Below are positions 7,416 through 15,413 of a stretch of DNA of 64,000 bases, in pieces (the first letter of the stretch is position 1; every line of letters begins with the position of its first letter). The position numbers and the translations under genes were made by a program. The notes beneath the pieces were generated by a model. That model was not told where the DNA came from. It did not search any database and saw only the letters and a list, made by a program, of their open reading frames with translations. The stretch covers positions 113,486 to 177,485 of the forward strand of contig JAVEYB010000003.1 in assembly GCA_034003725.1 (NCBI GenBank). Reading direction: 5' to 3'. This stretch comes from Candidatus Zixiibacteriota bacterium (lineage in GTDB: Bacteria > Zixibacteria > MSB-5A5 > GN15 > FEB-12).

Positions 7416-10400
7416 ATGAAGAGGTTAGGGTCATATCTTGCCATCCTCACCATTGTATTTTTTGCCTCTGCCGGCATTGCCAGCGCCGATCCCGAGTGGG
7501 TTCCGAACCTGACCGTTCCGAACGACAGCTCGGTTGTTTTTTGCCTGCCCGATTCCATCTGTTTTGAAATCGCCGGCTACGACGAGGATGTCGAGGATAC
7601 ACTGCGCCTGACGATCATTCAGCCCGACGGCACGCGGCTGTATGAAAAGTACAACACAAACGCCTTTACGCGCCAGATCTGCTTCGAGCCGGATACCGCC
7701 GGCGTCTACATGTGGCGTTTCAGACTTCGCGACCGTTATGATCGCTGGGTGGAAGACACCGTTTCGTATACGGTGTCGTTCAACGAACCGCCGACTATTG
7801 TCTGTCCGCAACCGCAGACGTTTTATACCTGTACCGTCGATACGTTCTGCTTTACGGTTGACGCGATGGACCCGGAATTCGGCCTGCTGACGTTTAACGT
7901 CCTGTCCGGTAACGCGACGATCGATGGCAAGACGGTCTGCGTGATCGGCGGCGAGGACGCGCAGTTTGATGTCGTGGTTGAGGTGGTTGATGAGTGCGCT
8001 CACGCCGACACATGCGTCGTGCCCGTGACCATCCAGGGCAACCGCCCGCCCGTAGTCAGCCTGCCCGCCGACTTCGAAGTTGCACTCTGTACGGGCGAGG
8101 AGATATGTATCCCCAACGCCTACGCCGATGACCCTGACTTCGATCTCGAGTCCGTGTTTACCAACGTCGGGTACTACGACGATCAGTCGAACCGTGTCTG
8201 CTTTACCGCCGACACCACCGGCCTGTACACCATCACGCTGACCGCCGTGGATTCCTGCGGCGCTCAGGATGAAGACACTATCCTCGTAACCGTTACCGTT
8301 GCCCCTTCACCGGTGATCGACCTCGGGCCCGACCGCTCCATCACGTTGTGCGAGTCGGGTGAGATCTGCCTCGATGGAATCGTCATTGACGGCGACTTCT
8401 CAACGCTGTCGATCGGCTACGGTGAATATGATCCCGAAGCCGGTACGATCTGTTTCGCGCCGGACACGTCGGGCGTGTATACGATTTTCGTGTTCGGCCG
8501 CGATCAATGCGAACGCGAGGTGGCCGACACGGTATACGTCACGGTCGAGCTCAATGCCCCGCCGACTATAAGCGATTTCGACGATATCGCGATTCACCTG
8601 TGTTCTCCGCAGCAAGTCTGTCTTGAGCCGACGATATTCGATCCCGACGGCGACATCGTGTCGGTCGTCCCGAGTGTCGGACAGTATTCCGACGGAAAAG
8701 TCTGTTTCTACCCGTACAGCAAGGGCCTGTATACGGTCGTCCTGACCGTTACCGATTCCTGCGGCCACGTCACAACCGACACCGCGCTCGTCACCGTGAC
8801 CACCGATCAGGACATAAACCTCGTATGCCCCGGCGACACGACCGTCTTTTTGTGCAGCCCGGACACGCTTCGGTTCCCTGTCGGCGGCATCCCTGACAAC
8901 GCTACAGTGACGGTCGGCGGCACCAACGCCAACTGGGACCCCGAAACCAACGAAATCTGGTTCTACTCCGACTGCTGCCTTGAAAACGAGTTGACGGTCA
9001 CGGCGACCACCGAGTGCGGCTCCTACTCGTGCAGTTTCGTCGTGTATGTCCAGACAAACTCCGCGCCGCTCGTGACGCTGCCGCAGGATACGTCGATCGT
9101 CGCCTGCGACCCGCTTGACGTTTGCCTGCCGGTCGGTATCGGCGATATCGATAACAACATCGAGTCGGTCGTCGTCTCGGGCGTCGAAGGCGCCTATTAC
9201 GATGACTATCGCGGAACGATTTGCTTCAGCGCTCCGGAATCCGGCGTTTACTCCTTGACGGTGGAAGTCACCGATGCATGCGGCGAAGCGCGCTCCCGGT
9301 CCATCGACGTTACGGTCGCCCTGAACGGAGCGCCGTCCATCAGCGTCGAGAATACGCAGGTGACTGTCGTCCAGTGCGAACCCGCCGAAGTTTGCGTGCC
9401 GTTTTCGTACACCGACGACGGCTCGTTCGAAATCACCACCTCGTTCGGTGAACTCCAGCTCACCGGACCGGGGATGGGCCAGATCTGTTTTACGCCGGAA
9501 TCAATTCCCGGTACGTTTCCCATTGGCCTCGTCATTACCGATGACTGCGGATCCGCGGACTCGGTCACCGTTACTGTCACTATCGACCAGGCGCCGTCCA
9601 CCGAGATTACGTGCCCCGTCGTAGAGCCTGTCTATCTTTGCGATACCGCCACCCTCACTGTCCCGGTCGAGATCACCGGCTACACCGGAGATGTCACCGC
9701 CACATACGGCCAGTGGGCCGACGGCGTCCTCAGTTTCCTCGCGGATACCAGCGGCACCTATGAAATCACCATCGTTGCCAATGCCGACTGCAACACCGAC
9801 ACGTGTCTGCTCGTGGTGACGGTCGATATCACCGACCCCGTGGAGATCGTCTGCCCTGAGAACCGGAATTTCTTCTTCTGCGAGTCGCCGCAGACAATCG
9901 AAATCCCGCTCACGATTAACGGCGTCGCCGATGACATCACTATCCTGCCCGAAACGGCTGAGTATGTCGACGGCATGATTCGTTTGAACGTGACGGAAAG
10001 CGGCGAGTATGGATTTACGGTCATCGCCTCGAATACGTGCAATACGGATACCTGCGAGTTCACGGCGACCGTCGACTTCAATGTCGCTCCGCAGATCGTG
10101 CTGGCCGATGACACGACAATCGTCCTGTGTGAACTGCCCGCCGAGATCCAGTTTCCGTATCACGTGATCAACCCCGACGACGGCCTGATCGAAGTGCGTA
10201 CCACCCTGGGGATCGTCAATGACAGCATCATCCGGTTCAACGCCAACGAAGCAGGCGTGTATGAGATGATCGTCTCGGCCATTGACGACTGCGGCCTCGT
10301 CGCCAAGGATACCGCGTATATTACGATTGAGCTGGGCGAGACGGTTGTGCTCGACTGCCCGCAGTCCCCGATCAATATCGATGTAGTCGTCCCGGAAACC

Positions 10401-13400
10401 ATTCGCGTGCCCCTCCTTGGACTGTCGCCCGCTGATGCCGTCGTGACAGTATCCAACGGCGGAACGTACGACCCCCAGACGGGCGAGCTCGTGTTGCGCA
10501 TTGAAGAGTATGGCACAACCGTGTTCGCAGTCTCCGCGACATCACCCTGCGGCGAAGCGAGCTGCGAGATTGTCGTCAATGCGGGCCAGTATATGCCGCC
10601 GATGGTCTTTTGCCCGGACGACGTCGACACCGCTCTGTGCTTCTCCGAAACGACCCAGGATGTCTGTCTGCCGATTACTATCAGCGGAATGTATACCGAT
10701 ATCGTGATCGATCCGATCGGGACTTACGTCGACGGCGCCATCTGCATCCCGGTCGACACGCTCGGCACGTATCTGATTTCCGTGAAAGTGCTCAACGACC
10801 GTGACACCGCCTCCTGCAGTTTCACGCTGACCAACCGCGAGGGAATCCTGCCGGCTATCGAACTGGTCGCTGAGTATACGGCCGAATTGTGCGGACCGGA
10901 TACTATCTGTCTGCCCTATTCGATTACGGCCGGAGATTTCCCGATAGAGTCCGTAACCCCGACCGGCGGATACCTCAGCGACGGCAACCTGTGCGTCGTG
11001 ATAGGAGAGACCGGCACCTACAACGCGAGCATTGCGGTCGTCGACTCCTGCGGTAATCGGGTCACCGCCAGTGTTACCATTACCGCCGAGGTAAACCAGC
11101 CTCCGGTCGTACAGCTTCCCGACGACTTTGAGACCCTGATCTGCGCCGGTGACAACCAGATTTGTATTGATGCGGTTGTTACCGACGGCAATCTGACCGA
11201 TGTCACAACCAGCCTCGGTACGTACGACGCTCAAACCGGACAGGTGTGCTTCATGACCGAAGGTCCCGGGCAGTACACTGTATTAGTGACGGCCACCGAC
11301 GCCTGTGGGGCTACGGCTTCCGACGAAGTAGTCGTTACGGTCAGCACCAATACCGCTCCGACCGTCAGTATCGACCCGTCCGATACCACCATCTTCGTGT
11401 GCAGCCCGTCGCAGATTTGTCTCGACGTCGCGGTAGACGACGCGGAAGGGAATATCGCCTCGGTCACGACTAATCGCGGTAAGTACGCCAATGGCCAGGT
11501 CTGTTTCTTCCCGTATTCAATGGGTACCTACCAGATCATCGTGACGGTAACCGATGAGTGCGGCGAACAGGCCGTGGACACGGCCACCGTGCAGGTCCAG
11601 ACCGAGCAGAACGTCAACCTGAGCTGCCCCGGCGACACGAGTGTCTTCCTCTGCGAACCTGATACGATTCGCTTCCCGATCGGTGGAGTCCCGGCCGGCG
11701 CTCAGATCACCCTCCAGGGAACCAACGTCCACTGGGATGCCTCGACCAGCTCGGTATGGTTCTATTCCGACTGCTGTATCGAGAACACCATCCGCGTCAC
11801 TGCCACGACGGATTGCGGCAGCTACCAGTGCGAATTCACCGTGTACGTGCAGACCAACAGCGCGCCGCTCGTGACGTTGCCGCAGGACACCACCATCGTC
11901 CAGTGCGAACCGGAGCCGATCTGTATCCCGGTCGGCATCAGCGATATCGATGACAACATCGTCTCCGTGTCGGTGAACAACCCGGCCTTCACCTACGACA
12001 GCTACAACGGCGCCATCTGCTTCACCCCCGACACGGCCGGCATGTACCTGCTGGCGGTGACGGCTGTCGATGATTGTGAAGTGTCGCGCACCGCCACCAT
12101 GAGTATCTCCGTAGCGGGCAACCGTCCTCCGACCGTGGTTTTTGACGGCCAGACGACCCAGTTTAAACTGTGCGATCTCGAGCAGATCTGCCTGCCCGTC
12201 GTGGTTGACGACCTGGATCTCAACATCGTCAGCCTGACTGTATCGCCGTCCGGGTTCTACAACGGTGAGAGCGGAGAAATCTGCTTCACGCCGGCCCAGT
12301 ACGGTAATGTCTGTGTCTCCGTGACGGTCACCGACGCCTGCGGCCTCAGGGCGACTGATACCCTCTGCATCGAGGTTATCCCCGGCGACTCCGTGCATTT
12401 GGCCTGCCCCGAGCAGCCGTACCCGACTGTCTCCCTCTGCAGCGCCCGCGATGCCTGCGTGCCTCTCGAGATCGTTGGAGAGAACTTCGCGGTGGAGACG
12501 TCGTTCGGAAGCTGGGTGGAGGGCATGCTGTGCTTCCCGGCCGACACGAGCGGAGTCTACACCATTACGATTTCGGCCGACGCGCAGTGCAACAGCGAGC
12601 AGTGTCTCGTGACCGTTCCCGTTGAGATCGTGGAGCCGCTCACCCTGACCTGTCCCGACAACGCGGCCGAGTTCCTGTGCGGTCCGGATACACTCTGCTA
12701 TGAATTCGAGGTTTCCTCGTCCGCAACGGCGGTATGGGCTGACGGCGGGGCGTTTATCGAAGGCAACACCGTCTGCGTCCCCGTACTGGAGCCGGGCGCA
12801 AGGACAATCAGCATTACTGCCGCGAACGACTGCGATACCATCACCTGCTCGTTCACCCTGCAGTCGACCTTCAACAGCGCGCCGGTTGTCGTTGATCAGC
12901 AGGACATCACGATGGTCGAGTGCAGCCTGTTCACGGTTTGTCTGCCGTACGATGTCGAGGATGTCGACAACAACATCGCGACCGTCACCGGCCCGGCATT
13001 CGGCCAGTTGACCGACTCCGGATTCTGCTTCACGCCCTCCGCGTTCGGCAGCTACGAAATCACTATTGTCGCGACCGATGAGTGCGGCGCCGCCGATATC
13101 GGCAGCTACACGTTCACCATCACCGAAGGCGAGTATGCCGCGATCGGTTGTCCCGATGATCCTTACGTATCCATTTGCGGCGCCACCACCGTGTGCATTC
13201 CGGTCATGATCGAGCCGGCCGACGCCGAGGTCACCATTCTTCCGGCCTCCTACGACGGCTACTACGACGCGGAAGACCAGACCGTCTGTCTGAATATCAA
13301 TCAGGGCGGCGCGCATCCGATCACCGTGATTGCCGCAGCCCAGTGCTATACCGATACCTGCAGGTTTACGGTCAATGTCGATCTGCAGCAGCCGCCGGTC

Positions 13401-15413
13401 CTGACCTGTCCGGGAACGATCGATACCCTGCTCTGCCTTGCCGATCCGACCCAGGTGTGCTTCCCGGTAGGCGTGCAGGGGACCGGGGTGCAGGTTACGG
13501 TAAAACCGATCGGCCAGTTCTCCGCCGGTCAGGTCTGCCTGCCGGTAGACACGGCCGGAACCTACAACCTGACGATCATCGGAACCGGACCCTGCGGCGT
13601 AGACACCTGTCTTACGACCGTCGTTGTCACGGCGGACCAGGAGCCGGTCATAACGCTGCCTGAATTCATGACCTTTGAACGGTGCCCTGAAGATGAGGAC
13701 GCCATCTGTATCTCCGGTTTCTCGGCCGCTGACGCCGAGTCGGACGTGCAGTTGAGCCTTACCTGCGGTACCGCCGACTTCAATCCTTCGACCGGTATTC
13801 TGTGCTTCGTGCCCGACTCACTGGGCATCCACGAGTTCTGTCTCACCGCCGATGACGGCTGCCACACGGTCACCGCGACCTATCAGGTGGACATCACGCT
13901 TCGGCCCGACTGCGACGTCTGCGTGCGGTTCTCGATCGACGGCGGTCAGTGTACCCCGGTCGGCATGCGCAAGCGCGTGGCCATGAACGTCGAGACCAAT
14001 GACGAAATCGGCGGTTACGACCTGCTCGTGAGCTACGATGCGTCGGTCCTGACATTCTCCGGAGCCACGATAGCCGGCACCGAAACGGAAGACTGGGAGT
14101 ATTTCCGCTATTCGCTCAACAATGCGGCGTGCGGCGGCGCCTGTCCGTCGGGTCTGGTCCGGTTTGTCGCTATTGCCGATCAGAACGACGGGCCGAACCA
14201 CCCGCCGTCCGGCGCTTACACGCCCCAGGGTGTGCTCTTCTTCATGGAATTCCTGGTGGCCAATGATCAGAATCTCGGCAACAACTTCATACCGATCCGA
14301 TTCGTGTGGTATGATTGCGGTGACAACGCCGTATCCAGCCGCACCGGGCAGATCCTCTTTATCGACATCAGGATGTACAACTCGGAAAACATCCTGATCT
14401 GGGATGAAACCGACGACGTCGCGTATCCGGAATCATCGCGGCCGTTCGGAATGGGCGCCGAAGACGCCTGCCTCGACCTGAGCGATAAGGCGGAGCCCCT
14501 GCGGTGTATCGAGTTCTTCAACGGCGGCATCTGTATCATCGATCCGGAAGAAATCGACGATCGCGGCGATGTGAACCTGAACGCTATCGCCTATGAAATC
14601 GGCGACGTGGTGACCTTCACCAACTACTTCATCTACGGTCTGTCGGCTTTCAAGATCAGCATCCCCGGACAGACGGCGGCGACCGACGTGAATGCCGACG
14701 GCCTCACGTTGACCGTGGCCGACCTGACCTACCTGATCCGTGTGGTTGTCGGTGACGCCTTCCCGATCCCGAAGACGAATCCGTACGATGACGCGCTTGA
14801 AATCGTCACCACGCAAAACGGCGGCGTCGCGACCGTCAGTACCGACGCGGTGTCGACGATCGGCGCGCTGCATCTCGTCTATGAGATTCCCGACGGCGTG
14901 GCTGTTGATGCTCCGGCGCTGGCGGCGGCAGCAGCGGGAATGACGCTGGACTACACCGTCACCGACGATGAAGTTCGATTGCTCATTTACGACGTCGGTC
15001 ACGATAGGATCGAATCGGGCCACCATACCATTCTGACTATTCCATATTCGGGCGCCGGTGAACTCGTGCTGACGACGGCCGAAGCCGCCGACTATAACGG
15101 ACAGCCGTACGTCACGCAGAAAGGCTCGGCGCTGCCCGATGGATTCATGCTCAATCAGAACTACCCCAACCCGTTCAACCCGACCACGACCATCAGTTTC
15201 GATCTCCCGGCTGCGATGGCGTGGAGACTGGAAATCTACAACATCACCGGGGCGGCGGTCCGGTCCTATGAAGGATCGGGAGTCACCGGTCAGGTCCAGG
15301 TCGTCTGGGATGGCTGTACGGAACGCGGGGAACAGGTGGCCTCGGGCGTGTACCTGTACCGTCTGCAGGCGGGAGAGTTCTCCGAAACGAAGAAGATGAT
15401 GCTTCTGAAGTAA
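7416..15413 (+). CDS. Giant secreted Cys-rich Ig-like repeat protein with cohesin-like, dockerin-like and type-IX-like sorting domains
   Basis: 2665 residues. A signal peptide (1 to about 25) is followed by about 25 Ig/cadherin-like beta repeats of 75-95 residues (about 26-2165). Their consensus is: C..eeiCiP....D.d.nI.sv...G.Y.dg.iCF.P...G.Ytitv.atD.CG....dt..VtV..n.pP. Conserved Cys in each repeat suggest disulfides in an extracellular rod. A cohesin-like domain follows (about 2169-2330, RVAMNVETNDEIGGYDLLVS). Next is a dockerin-like segment with calcium-loop-like GDVNLN (2384-2389) and TDVNADGLTLTVADLTYLI (from 2423). The end is a FlgD-like sorting tail with LNQNYPNPFNPTTTISF (about 2580-2596). 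Start chosen at ATG 7416 behind GGAGGAAAG. Probably a cell-surface adhesin or scaffold; function unproven. Confidence 0.85.
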   Translation: MKRLGSYLAILTIVFFASAGIASADPEWVPNLTVPNDSSVVFCLPDSICFEIAGYDEDVEDTLRLTIIQPDGTRLYEKYNTNAFTRQICFEPDTAGVYMWRFRLRDRYDRWVEDTVSYTVSFNEPPTIVCPQPQTFYTCTVDTFCFTVDAMDPEFGLLTFNVLSGNATIDGKTVCVIGGEDAQFDVVVEVVDECAHADTCVVPVTIQGNRPPVVSLPADFEVALCTGEEICIPNAYADDPDFDLESVFTNVGYYDDQSNRVCFTADTTGLYTITLTAVDSCGAQDEDTILVTVTVAPSPVIDLGPDRSITLCESGEICLDGIVIDGDFSTLSIGYGEYDPEAGTICFAPDTSGVYTIFVFGRDQCEREVADTVYVTVELNAPPTISDFDDIAIHLCSPQQVCLEPTIFDPDGDIVSVVPSVGQYSDGKVCFYPYSKGLYTVVLTVTDSCGHVTTDTALVTVTTDQDINLVCPGDTTVFLCSPDTLRFPVGGIPDNATVTVGGTNANWDPETNEIWFYSDCCLENELTVTATTECGSYSCSFVVYVQTNSAPLVTLPQDTSIVACDPLDVCLPVGIGDIDNNIESVVVSGVEGAYYDDYRGTICFSAPESGVYSLTVEVTDACGEARSRSIDVTVALNGAPSISVENTQVTVVQCEPAEVCVPFSYTDDGSFEITTSFGELQLTGPGMGQICFTPESIPGTFPIGLVITDDCGSADSVTVTVTIDQAPSTEITCPVVEPVYLCDTATLTVPVEITGYTGDVTATYGQWADGVLSFLADTSGTYEITIVANADCNTDTCLLVVTVDITDPVEIVCPENRNFFFCESPQTIEIPLTINGVADDITILPETAEYVDGMIRLNVTESGEYGFTVIASNTCNTDTCEFTATVDFNVAPQIVLADDTTIVLCELPAEIQFPYHVINPDDGLIEVRTTLGIVNDSIIRFNANEAGVYEMIVSAIDDCGLVAKDTAYITIELGETVVLDCPQSPINIDVVVPETIRVPLLGLSPADAVVTVSNGGTYDPQTGELVLRIEEYGTTVFAVSATSPCGEASCEIVVNAGQYMPPMVFCPDDVDTALCFSETTQDVCLPITISGMYTDIVIDPIGTYVDGAICIPVDTLGTYLISVKVLNDRDTASCSFTLTNREGILPAIELVAEYTAELCGPDTICLPYSITAGDFPIESVTPTGGYLSDGNLCVVIGETGTYNASIAVVDSCGNRVTASVTITAEVNQPPVVQLPDDFETLICAGDNQICIDAVVTDGNLTDVTTSLGTYDAQTGQVCFMTEGPGQYTVLVTATDACGATASDEVVVTVSTNTAPTVSIDPSDTTIFVCSPSQICLDVAVDDAEGNIASVTTNRGKYANGQVCFFPYSMGTYQIIVTVTDECGEQAVDTATVQVQTEQNVNLSCPGDTSVFLCEPDTIRFPIGGVPAGAQITLQGTNVHWDASTSSVWFYSDCCIENTIRVTATTDCGSYQCEFTVYVQTNSAPLVTLPQDTTIVQCEPEPICIPVGISDIDDNIVSVSVNNPAFTYDSYNGAICFTPDTAGMYLLAVTAVDDCEVSRTATMSISVAGNRPPTVVFDGQTTQFKLCDLEQICLPVVVDDLDLNIVSLTVSPSGFYNGESGEICFTPAQYGNVCVSVTVTDACGLRATDTLCIEVIPGDSVHLACPEQPYPTVSLCSARDACVPLEIVGENFAVETSFGSWVEGMLCFPADTSGVYTITISADAQCNSEQCLVTVPVEIVEPLTLTCPDNAAEFLCGPDTLCYEFEVSSSATAVWADGGAFIEGNTVCVPVLEPGARTISITAANDCDTITCSFTLQSTFNSAPVVVDQQDITMVECSLFTVCLPYDVEDVDNNIATVTGPAFGQLTDSGFCFTPSAFGSYEITIVATDECGAADIGSYTFTITEGEYAAIGCPDDPYVSICGATTVCIPVMIEPADAEVTILPASYDGYYDAEDQTVCLNINQGGAHPITVIAAAQCYTDTCRFTVNVDLQQPPVLTCPGTIDTLLCLADPTQVCFPVGVQGTGVQVTVKPIGQFSAGQVCLPVDTAGTYNLTIIGTGPCGVDTCLTTVVVTADQEPVITLPEFMTFERCPEDEDAICISGFSAADAESDVQLSLTCGTADFNPSTGILCFVPDSLGIHEFCLTADDGCHTVTATYQVDITLRPDCDVCVRFSIDGGQCTPVGMRKRVAMNVETNDEIGGYDLLVSYDASVLTFSGATIAGTETEDWEYFRYSLNNAACGGACPSGLVRFVAIADQNDGPNHPPSGAYTPQGVLFFMEFLVANDQNLGNNFIPIRFVWYDCGDNAVSSRTGQILFIDIRMYNSENILIWDETDDVAYPESSRPFGMGAEDACLDLSDKAEPLRCIEFFNGGICIIDPEEIDDRGDVNLNAIAYEIGDVVTFTNYFIYGLSAFKISIPGQTAATDVNADGLTLTVADLTYLIRVVVGDAFPIPKTNPYDDALEIVTTQNGGVATVSTDAVSTIGALHLVYEIPDGVAVDAPALAAAAAGMTLDYTVTDDEVRLLIYDVGHDRIESGHHTILTIPYSGAGELVLTTAEAADYNGQPYVTQKGSALPDGFMLNQNYPNPFNPTTTISFDLPAAMAWRLEIYNITGAAVRSYEGSGVTGQVQVVWDGCTERGEQVASGVYLYRLQAGEFSETKKMMLLK
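8307..11099 (+). repeat. Block A of an 11-repeat internal duplication
   Basis: Residues about 298-1228 hold 11 Ig-like repeats whose subtypes recur in the same order in the next block. The shift is 2793 nt (931 residues) when measured at both ends. The clearest pair are the repeats starting NLVCPGDTTVFLC here and NLSCPGDTSVFLC in block B. Within the block that pair is offset by 2799 nt, so small compensating indels exist. Confidence 0.8.
11100..13892 (+). repeat. Block B of the 11-repeat internal duplication
   Basis: Residues about 1229-2159. Repeat for repeat it is the partner of block A. For example the WFYSDCCIENTIRVTATTDC segment matches WFYSDCCLENELTVTATTEC, and both are followed by YVQTNSAPLVTLPQDT. 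The paralogues have diverged at the protein level, so the duplication is old. Confidence 0.8.

Follow-up and report, generated by a model that had tools for sequence, protein, structure and literature searches.

If a whole run of domains in a giant surface protein is copied at once, does their order matter, and what becomes of the two copies afterwards? The question is raised by a gene of a Candidatus Zixiibacteriota bacterium that lies in a 64,000-nucleotide stretch of DNA (hereafter the window). The original prediction, made from the letters of the window, was that an 11-repeat super-unit had been duplicated in order within the encoded protein, and that this order may matter for spacing.

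The gene, its locus and its C-terminal module

The gene occupies positions 7416-15413 on the + strand, as do all features of the protein described below, and encodes a giant secreted repeat protein of 2665 aa in a single unbroken frame with an ATG start. A signal-peptide-like N terminus (residues 1-24, 7416-7487), recognized by eye from an initial MKR, a hydrophobic run and a SAD-type site, is followed by an array of 25 Cys-rich Ig/PKD-like repeats of 81-99 aa each, from R1 (7488-7784) to R25 (13638-13904), and by a C-terminal region of 502 aa. Full-length orthologues with the same 25 repeats in the same order are present in two congeners (74% and 68% identity), where the place of the gene before rlmH-yjbQ-ftsY is conserved. 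A search of 60 relatives, which are metagenome assemblies, gave a match in all 60. The genes compared here are mostly one and the same locus, since rlmH-yjbQ-ftsY follow the gene at more than 35 loci of the taxonomic order. In one relative (G020) the gene is split by a frame change between R24 and R25 (L049, G020:C42, about 116196-116199), which may be an assembly error. An antisense open frame of 599 codons (- strand, 11517-13316) lies under R14-R24 of the window gene; it is probably a composition effect, as other long antisense frames occur in the window.

Single repeats of the array exceed the Pfam cut-offs of PKD/Ig-like families (K319L-like_PKD 39.3, Big_13 35.8 and PKD_4 32.6, with a cut-off of 27 each, as well as Big_9). 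However, no one Pfam model spans the whole array, and neither the paired-cysteine pattern nor the WFYSDCC module described below has a Pfam family.

The C-terminal region comprises a cohesin-like beta-sandwich (13905-14543), a dockerin-like stretch with two DxNxxxxxxxxxD motifs seen by eye (14556-14774), a second cohesin-like beta-sandwich (14796-15122) and a FlgD-Ig-like type IX secretion C-terminal sorting domain (15162-15401). Foldseek comparison over the whole structure model of the region returned cellulosomal cohesins (e.g. 1aoh, TMt 0.75), and the second sandwich gave a profile match to the cohesin 2xdh (E 0.003). Among 33 orthologues, Pfam Cohesin (PF00963) was detected in 14 at E values up to 0.05 and Dockerin_1 (PF00404) in one (E 0.0018); model confidence is under 50 in the dockerin-like stretch. 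The combination of cohesin folds with a dockerin-like motif pair recalls the non-cellulosomal cohesin/dockerin proteins, but the window protein does not match PF00963 at E values up to 0.05 and falls below the Pfam cut-offs for both domains.

The sorting domain lies above the curated cut-offs (TIGR04183, 38.7 bits vs 23; PF18962, 28.1 vs 27; PF13860 also over its cut-off). The same genome encodes SprA (SprA_N 67.7 bits, over cut-off) and PorU (673 bits vs 420), and the host thus has a type IX system. The protein would be exported by this route and anchored at the surface by its sorting domain. A literature search gave no relevant paper on giant surface proteins of Zixibacteria or on type IX secretion in this group, and we know of no characterised surface protein in the phylum. 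The C-terminal region (13905-15410) recurs at about 15 other places in the same genome (16 matches), and its recurrence in many proteins suggests a shared surface-assembly module.

An ordered block of eleven repeats

Scoring was done per repeat, self-BLASTP of the whole protein having given no usable off-diagonal matches. Repeats eleven apart have a mean BLOSUM62 score of 128, compared with 49-78 at all other shifts between 1 and 19. In the phase originally assumed (R4-R14 against R15-R25), the ordered pairing of copies A and B has a score of 1650, which 0 of 200,000 shuffles reached (mean 818, sd 142); with R5-R7 left out, the score of 852 (shuffled mean 533, sd 88) was reached in 108 of 200,000. 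The landmarks named in the original prediction were likewise recovered: NLxCPGDT recurs at an offset of exactly 2799 nt, and the WFYSDCC module and the (T/P)TQ(D)VC(L/F)P module (TxQDVCLP and TQVCFP) each occur once per block. At the protein level the offset is not uniform and varies along the block between about 930 and 933 aa.

By the window sequence alone, the partner is the best match only for R4, R5, R6, R7, R9, R12 and R13, so that 7 of the 11 pairs of the earlier phase hold; R8, R10, R11 and R14 each resemble some other repeat more closely. We then divided 37 homologues into repeats and matched these, in their order, to the 25 repeats of the window, an order-respecting assignment of orthology that assumes conserved order, and the classes R1-R25 were compared as profiles, each built from up to 15 genomes, with orthologues spanning about 12 genera. 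Reciprocal best matches were obtained for R3-R14, R4-R15, R5-R16, R6-R17, R7-R18, R8-R19, R9-R20, R11-R22, R12-R23 and R13-R24, that is, for 10 of 11 pairs; R10-R21 ranked 3rd/2nd, and this pairing is not clean. By contrast, R14-R25 was rejected (rank 22/8, score 55 vs 180 for R3-R14), and R25 (13638-13904) forms a separate repeat class that is not the partner of R14. R1 and R2 (7488-8042) are not part of the block, as the profiles gave no pairing of R1 with R12 (ranks 24/24) or of R2 with R13 (23/21). R3, which in the window sequence alone is the reciprocal best match of R15 (45%), is instead assigned to R14 by the profiles, and R15 to R4. All three species of the genus independently have their best ungapped self-match at repeats 3-13 with shift 11.

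Because the profiles pair R3 with R14 and reject R14-R25, the block is shifted upstream by one repeat relative to the earlier boundaries and consists of copy A, R3-R13 (8043-10850), and copy B, R14-R24 (10851-13637), each of 11 repeats; the phase R4-R14/R15-R25 is rejected. Thus, the period of eleven in the original prediction stood, its limits lay one repeat too far downstream, and its one-to-one pairing was borne out apart from R10/R21 and the discarded pair R14/R25. A tree grouping neighbours rather than partners had been named as the outcome that would speak against an ordered duplication; tested with family profiles, the claim survived for R3-R13/R14-R24.

An AlphaFold model of one super-unit had also been proposed as a check. 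The model of copy B contains 11 beta-sandwich domains (mean pLDDT 83) and gives the domains, not their arrangement (pTM 0.29); we infer that they form a rod. Structural comparison of block B placed grappling hook protein A (GhpA) of Aureispira (PDB 9flp, 9fly, 9flw), a giant bacterial filament that likewise has tandem Ig-like domains, among the best bacterial matches. However, the match is one of generic Ig-like fold only, with 11-14% identity and a low whole-chain TM, and no sequence comparison supports membership.

Age of the copies and homogenisation of one cassette

Trees were obtained from quick searches. In the tree of R9-R13 and R20-R24, the A-type (14 genomes) and B-type (24 genomes) sequences each fall on one side of a branch with a support of 100; a further 11 distant genomes gave this split as well. 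Since the A and B types of R9-R13 form distinct orthologous groups in the genera of the window's clade, the duplication is ancient, and both copies existed before these genera separated. A second clade within the family (G005, G033, G032, G014, G036 and G022) lacks the A-type R9-R13; its repeated unit comprises 13-19 repeats, and R2-class repeats apparently lie within that unit. The missing A-type repeats and the longer unit indicate that the 11-repeat event may not be the common ancestral state of the family, and a separate duplication in the second clade is likely.

The three repeats R5-R7 of copy A (cassette A, 8556-9326) and their partners R16-R18 in copy B (cassette B, 11352-12122) have a different history. 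They contain the WFYSDCC(L)EN module in R6 (8811-9059) and the WFYSDCC(I)EN module in R17 (11610-11858), respectively. In the cassette tree the A and B labels are as mixed as when shuffled (14 changes vs 14.6), with genome- or genus-mates pairing, and monophyly of the A copies is rejected, at a cost of 147 log-likelihood units (p-AU 6e-9). Within a genome, R6 and R17 have a mean score of 345, compared with 266-268 for pairs from different genomes, whereas R10/R21, R12/R23 and R13/R24 show the opposite, orthologues being closer than partners. The excess extends to silent positions, where 0.50 of fourfold sites are identical between R6 and R17 of the same genome (n=545) compared with 0.33-0.34 between genomes and with 0.40 for control repeats within genomes (0.50 vs 0.40, Fisher p 4e-5). 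In G034, R6 and R17 are 93% identical in DNA, and the neighbouring R9-R13 only 47%. A likeness within the genome that exceeds likeness to orthologues, silent sites included, was found for R5-R7/R16-R18 only; these repeats are under concerted evolution between the copies, in separate lineages. The mixing in the tree and the within-genome excess at silent sites make gene conversion, confined to the cassette, the most likely agent.

The cassette could also be read as the work of selection only, if both copies bind the same lineage-specific partner and their proteins converge or stay alike without any exchange of DNA. In favour of such a reading, no repeat class is better conserved across the order than the WFYSDCC module, and R6 and R17 of G014 and of G036 are 85-89% identical in protein although silent identity is only about 0.41 (0.40-0.42), near the background. 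In these two genomes the likeness is a matter of protein-level constraint rather than recent conversion, and conversion and protein-level selection probably both act on the cassette. As the whole explanation, however, we consider selection distinctly unlikely: constraint alone does not bring a copy nearer to its own partner than to its orthologue over dozens of neutral positions, and silent identity between R6 and R17, besides exceeding the control overall, rises to 0.76 in G034, 0.69 in G011 and 0.63 in G028.

The cassette tree taken alone would also look as if the duplication had arisen separately in several lineages, recently and repeatedly rather than once in an ancestor, and super-units of other lengths do occur in relatives (13, about 14 and 5) and in a paralogue (10), so that events of this kind recur. 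This origin we hold to be very improbable for the 11-repeat block, because the separation of A- and B-type R9-R13 over some 12 genera calls for one old event, at least in that clade; for the clade of the window, separate recent duplications are refuted by the R9-R13/R20-R24 tree. It is harder still to credit that no block was duplicated and that a few repeat types were placed twice in the same order by selection. Two obvious types do exist, with CGxxxxD and CxxxxC ends, and the type string 11121122122 is equal in R3-R13 and R14-R24, a match that for the string alone would arise by chance once in 462. However, shuffling partners within types reached the true pairing only once in 200,000 (334 times in 200,000 without R5-R7), and the partners are reciprocal best matches in 10 of 11 cases. 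The within-type shuffles reject a chance recurrence of the type order, and the reading is largely refuted.

Spacing, known super-repeats and the proposed rod

Eight repeats follow R17 in the window protein, and exactly eight separate the last cassette from the C-terminal module in 23 of 23 comparable genomes of the family, one-block forms included (of its 25 genomes, G020, with R25 in another frame, and G030b, cut by the contig, were set aside). In another family of the order this distance is 8 or 11 repeats, and in a third 13. Cassettes of the family lie 11, 13, 14, 15, 18 or 19 repeats apart and those of the order 2-19; among relatives the distance is 9-19 where two cassettes are well separated and 3-4 in two further genomes. 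Most relatives have two cassettes; G039 and G060, from another family of the order, have three, and G012, G009, G019 and G003 have one. One-block homologues, which the original prediction had proposed to look for, are thus present in related genomes, at the same locus in G012 and elsewhere in G009 and G019. In the latter two (L046 and L067, respectively) rlmH is on another contig and the gene has probably moved, which is clear for G009; in G019 the contig ends soon after the gene.

Super-units of other sizes are repeated as well, with 13 repeats in G005, G033, G032 and G014 and about 14 in G060. Local arrays of smaller super-units have period 5 in G055 (L053) and period 3 in G016 (L037). A paralogue in the genome of the window (L113, G000:C11:44500-54500), a frame of 2971 aa, has its own ordered super-unit duplication of period 10, with a mean score of 189 at shift 10 compared with 101-139 at other shifts.

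Because one-block relatives exist and others repeat other units, the A-to-B spacing is not constrained, and the variable spacing rules out a strict ruler between the two copies. A constant unit length acting as a ruler, as in nebulin (7) and titin (7 and 11), is found neither in the family nor in the order. The C-proximal arm is architecturally fixed and the distal arm plastic, so ruler-like behaviour is seen in part, confined to the C-terminal arm. The idea that order may matter for spacing accordingly fails for the distance between the copies and holds for the C-proximal order, with its cassette exactly eight repeats from the C-terminal module throughout the family.

The duplication by itself is not surprising, because multi-domain expansion is common and super-repeats of 7 and 11 domains are classical in nebulin and titin. 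Domain repeats most often expand by several domains at once, often in the middle of the array, as described mostly in eukaryotes and exemplified by the seven-repeat super-repeats of nebulin (PMC1553488). The premise of the original prediction that ordinary tandem expansion copies single repeats was therefore mistaken, and the relatives and the paralogue, which repeat units of other sizes, speak against it too. In the A-band of titin, 11-domain super-repeats occur whose order is linked to a spacing role (PMC3859903). Like titin, the window protein is a giant chain of Ig-type domains that contains a repeated, ordered unit of 11 domains (PMC3859903). However, titin is a eukaryotic muscle protein of unrelated sequence, and here relatives differ in unit length and in the distance between copies (9-19 repeats, or 3-4 in two genomes), which leaves a strict ruler between them unsupported. 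With nebulin and domain expansion in general it has in common that several domains were duplicated at once; a single cassette homogenised while its neighbours remain old orthologous series is, by contrast, absent from that description (PMC1553488). What is new is this contrast between old series and homogenised cassette within one duplicated block, together with the invariant eight-repeat arm.

We consider it probable that the protein is a rod with one ancestral 11-domain duplication, a cassette converted between the copies and a frozen C-proximal arm. Built of about 25 Ig/PKD-like domains, the gene product would form a long rod rich in disulphides, with a function that can be proposed from its anatomy. 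In an ancestor of a large part of this Zixibacteria family, R3-R13 would have been duplicated in tandem and in frame, yielding R14-R24 in a single event that is most simply explained by unequal exchange between repeats of similar sequence. Most domains of both copies then diverged as two fixed orthologous series, as the tree shows, while tree and silent sites show that R5-R7/R16-R18 were homogenised between copies in separate lineages. Gene conversion may have been favoured because the cassette bears a binding or assembly face of the rod. Comparison among relatives shows that the arm of eight domains from the last cassette to the cohesin-like module is frozen and that the arm beyond it grows and shrinks through block duplications; the C-proximal cassette may need a set distance from the cell surface, with the distal copy only adding reach or avidity. 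Since it alone is homogenised, conserved across the order and fixed in place, the cassette would be the likeliest working part of the protein. A more specific proposal, tentative and on balance doubtful, is that the cassette is the functional head of the rod, made a bivalent binder by conversion in every lineage, with the proximal copy held eight domains from the surface anchor and the reach of the distal copy evolvable.

Giant repeat proteins of the cell surface can seldom be traced, being too repetitive. In this one gene, followed over about 20 genera, the old orthologous series can be distinguished from the homogenised cassette and from the arm of invariant length, and this distinction points to the few domains likeliest to do the work. 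The locus also provides a clear bacterial super-unit duplication in which the spacing from copy to copy is free and the distance to the anchor is not. If the cassette does act as a functional head, these bacteria would carry a surface rod whose proximal reach is fixed and whose distal reach can evolve, readable directly from sequence.
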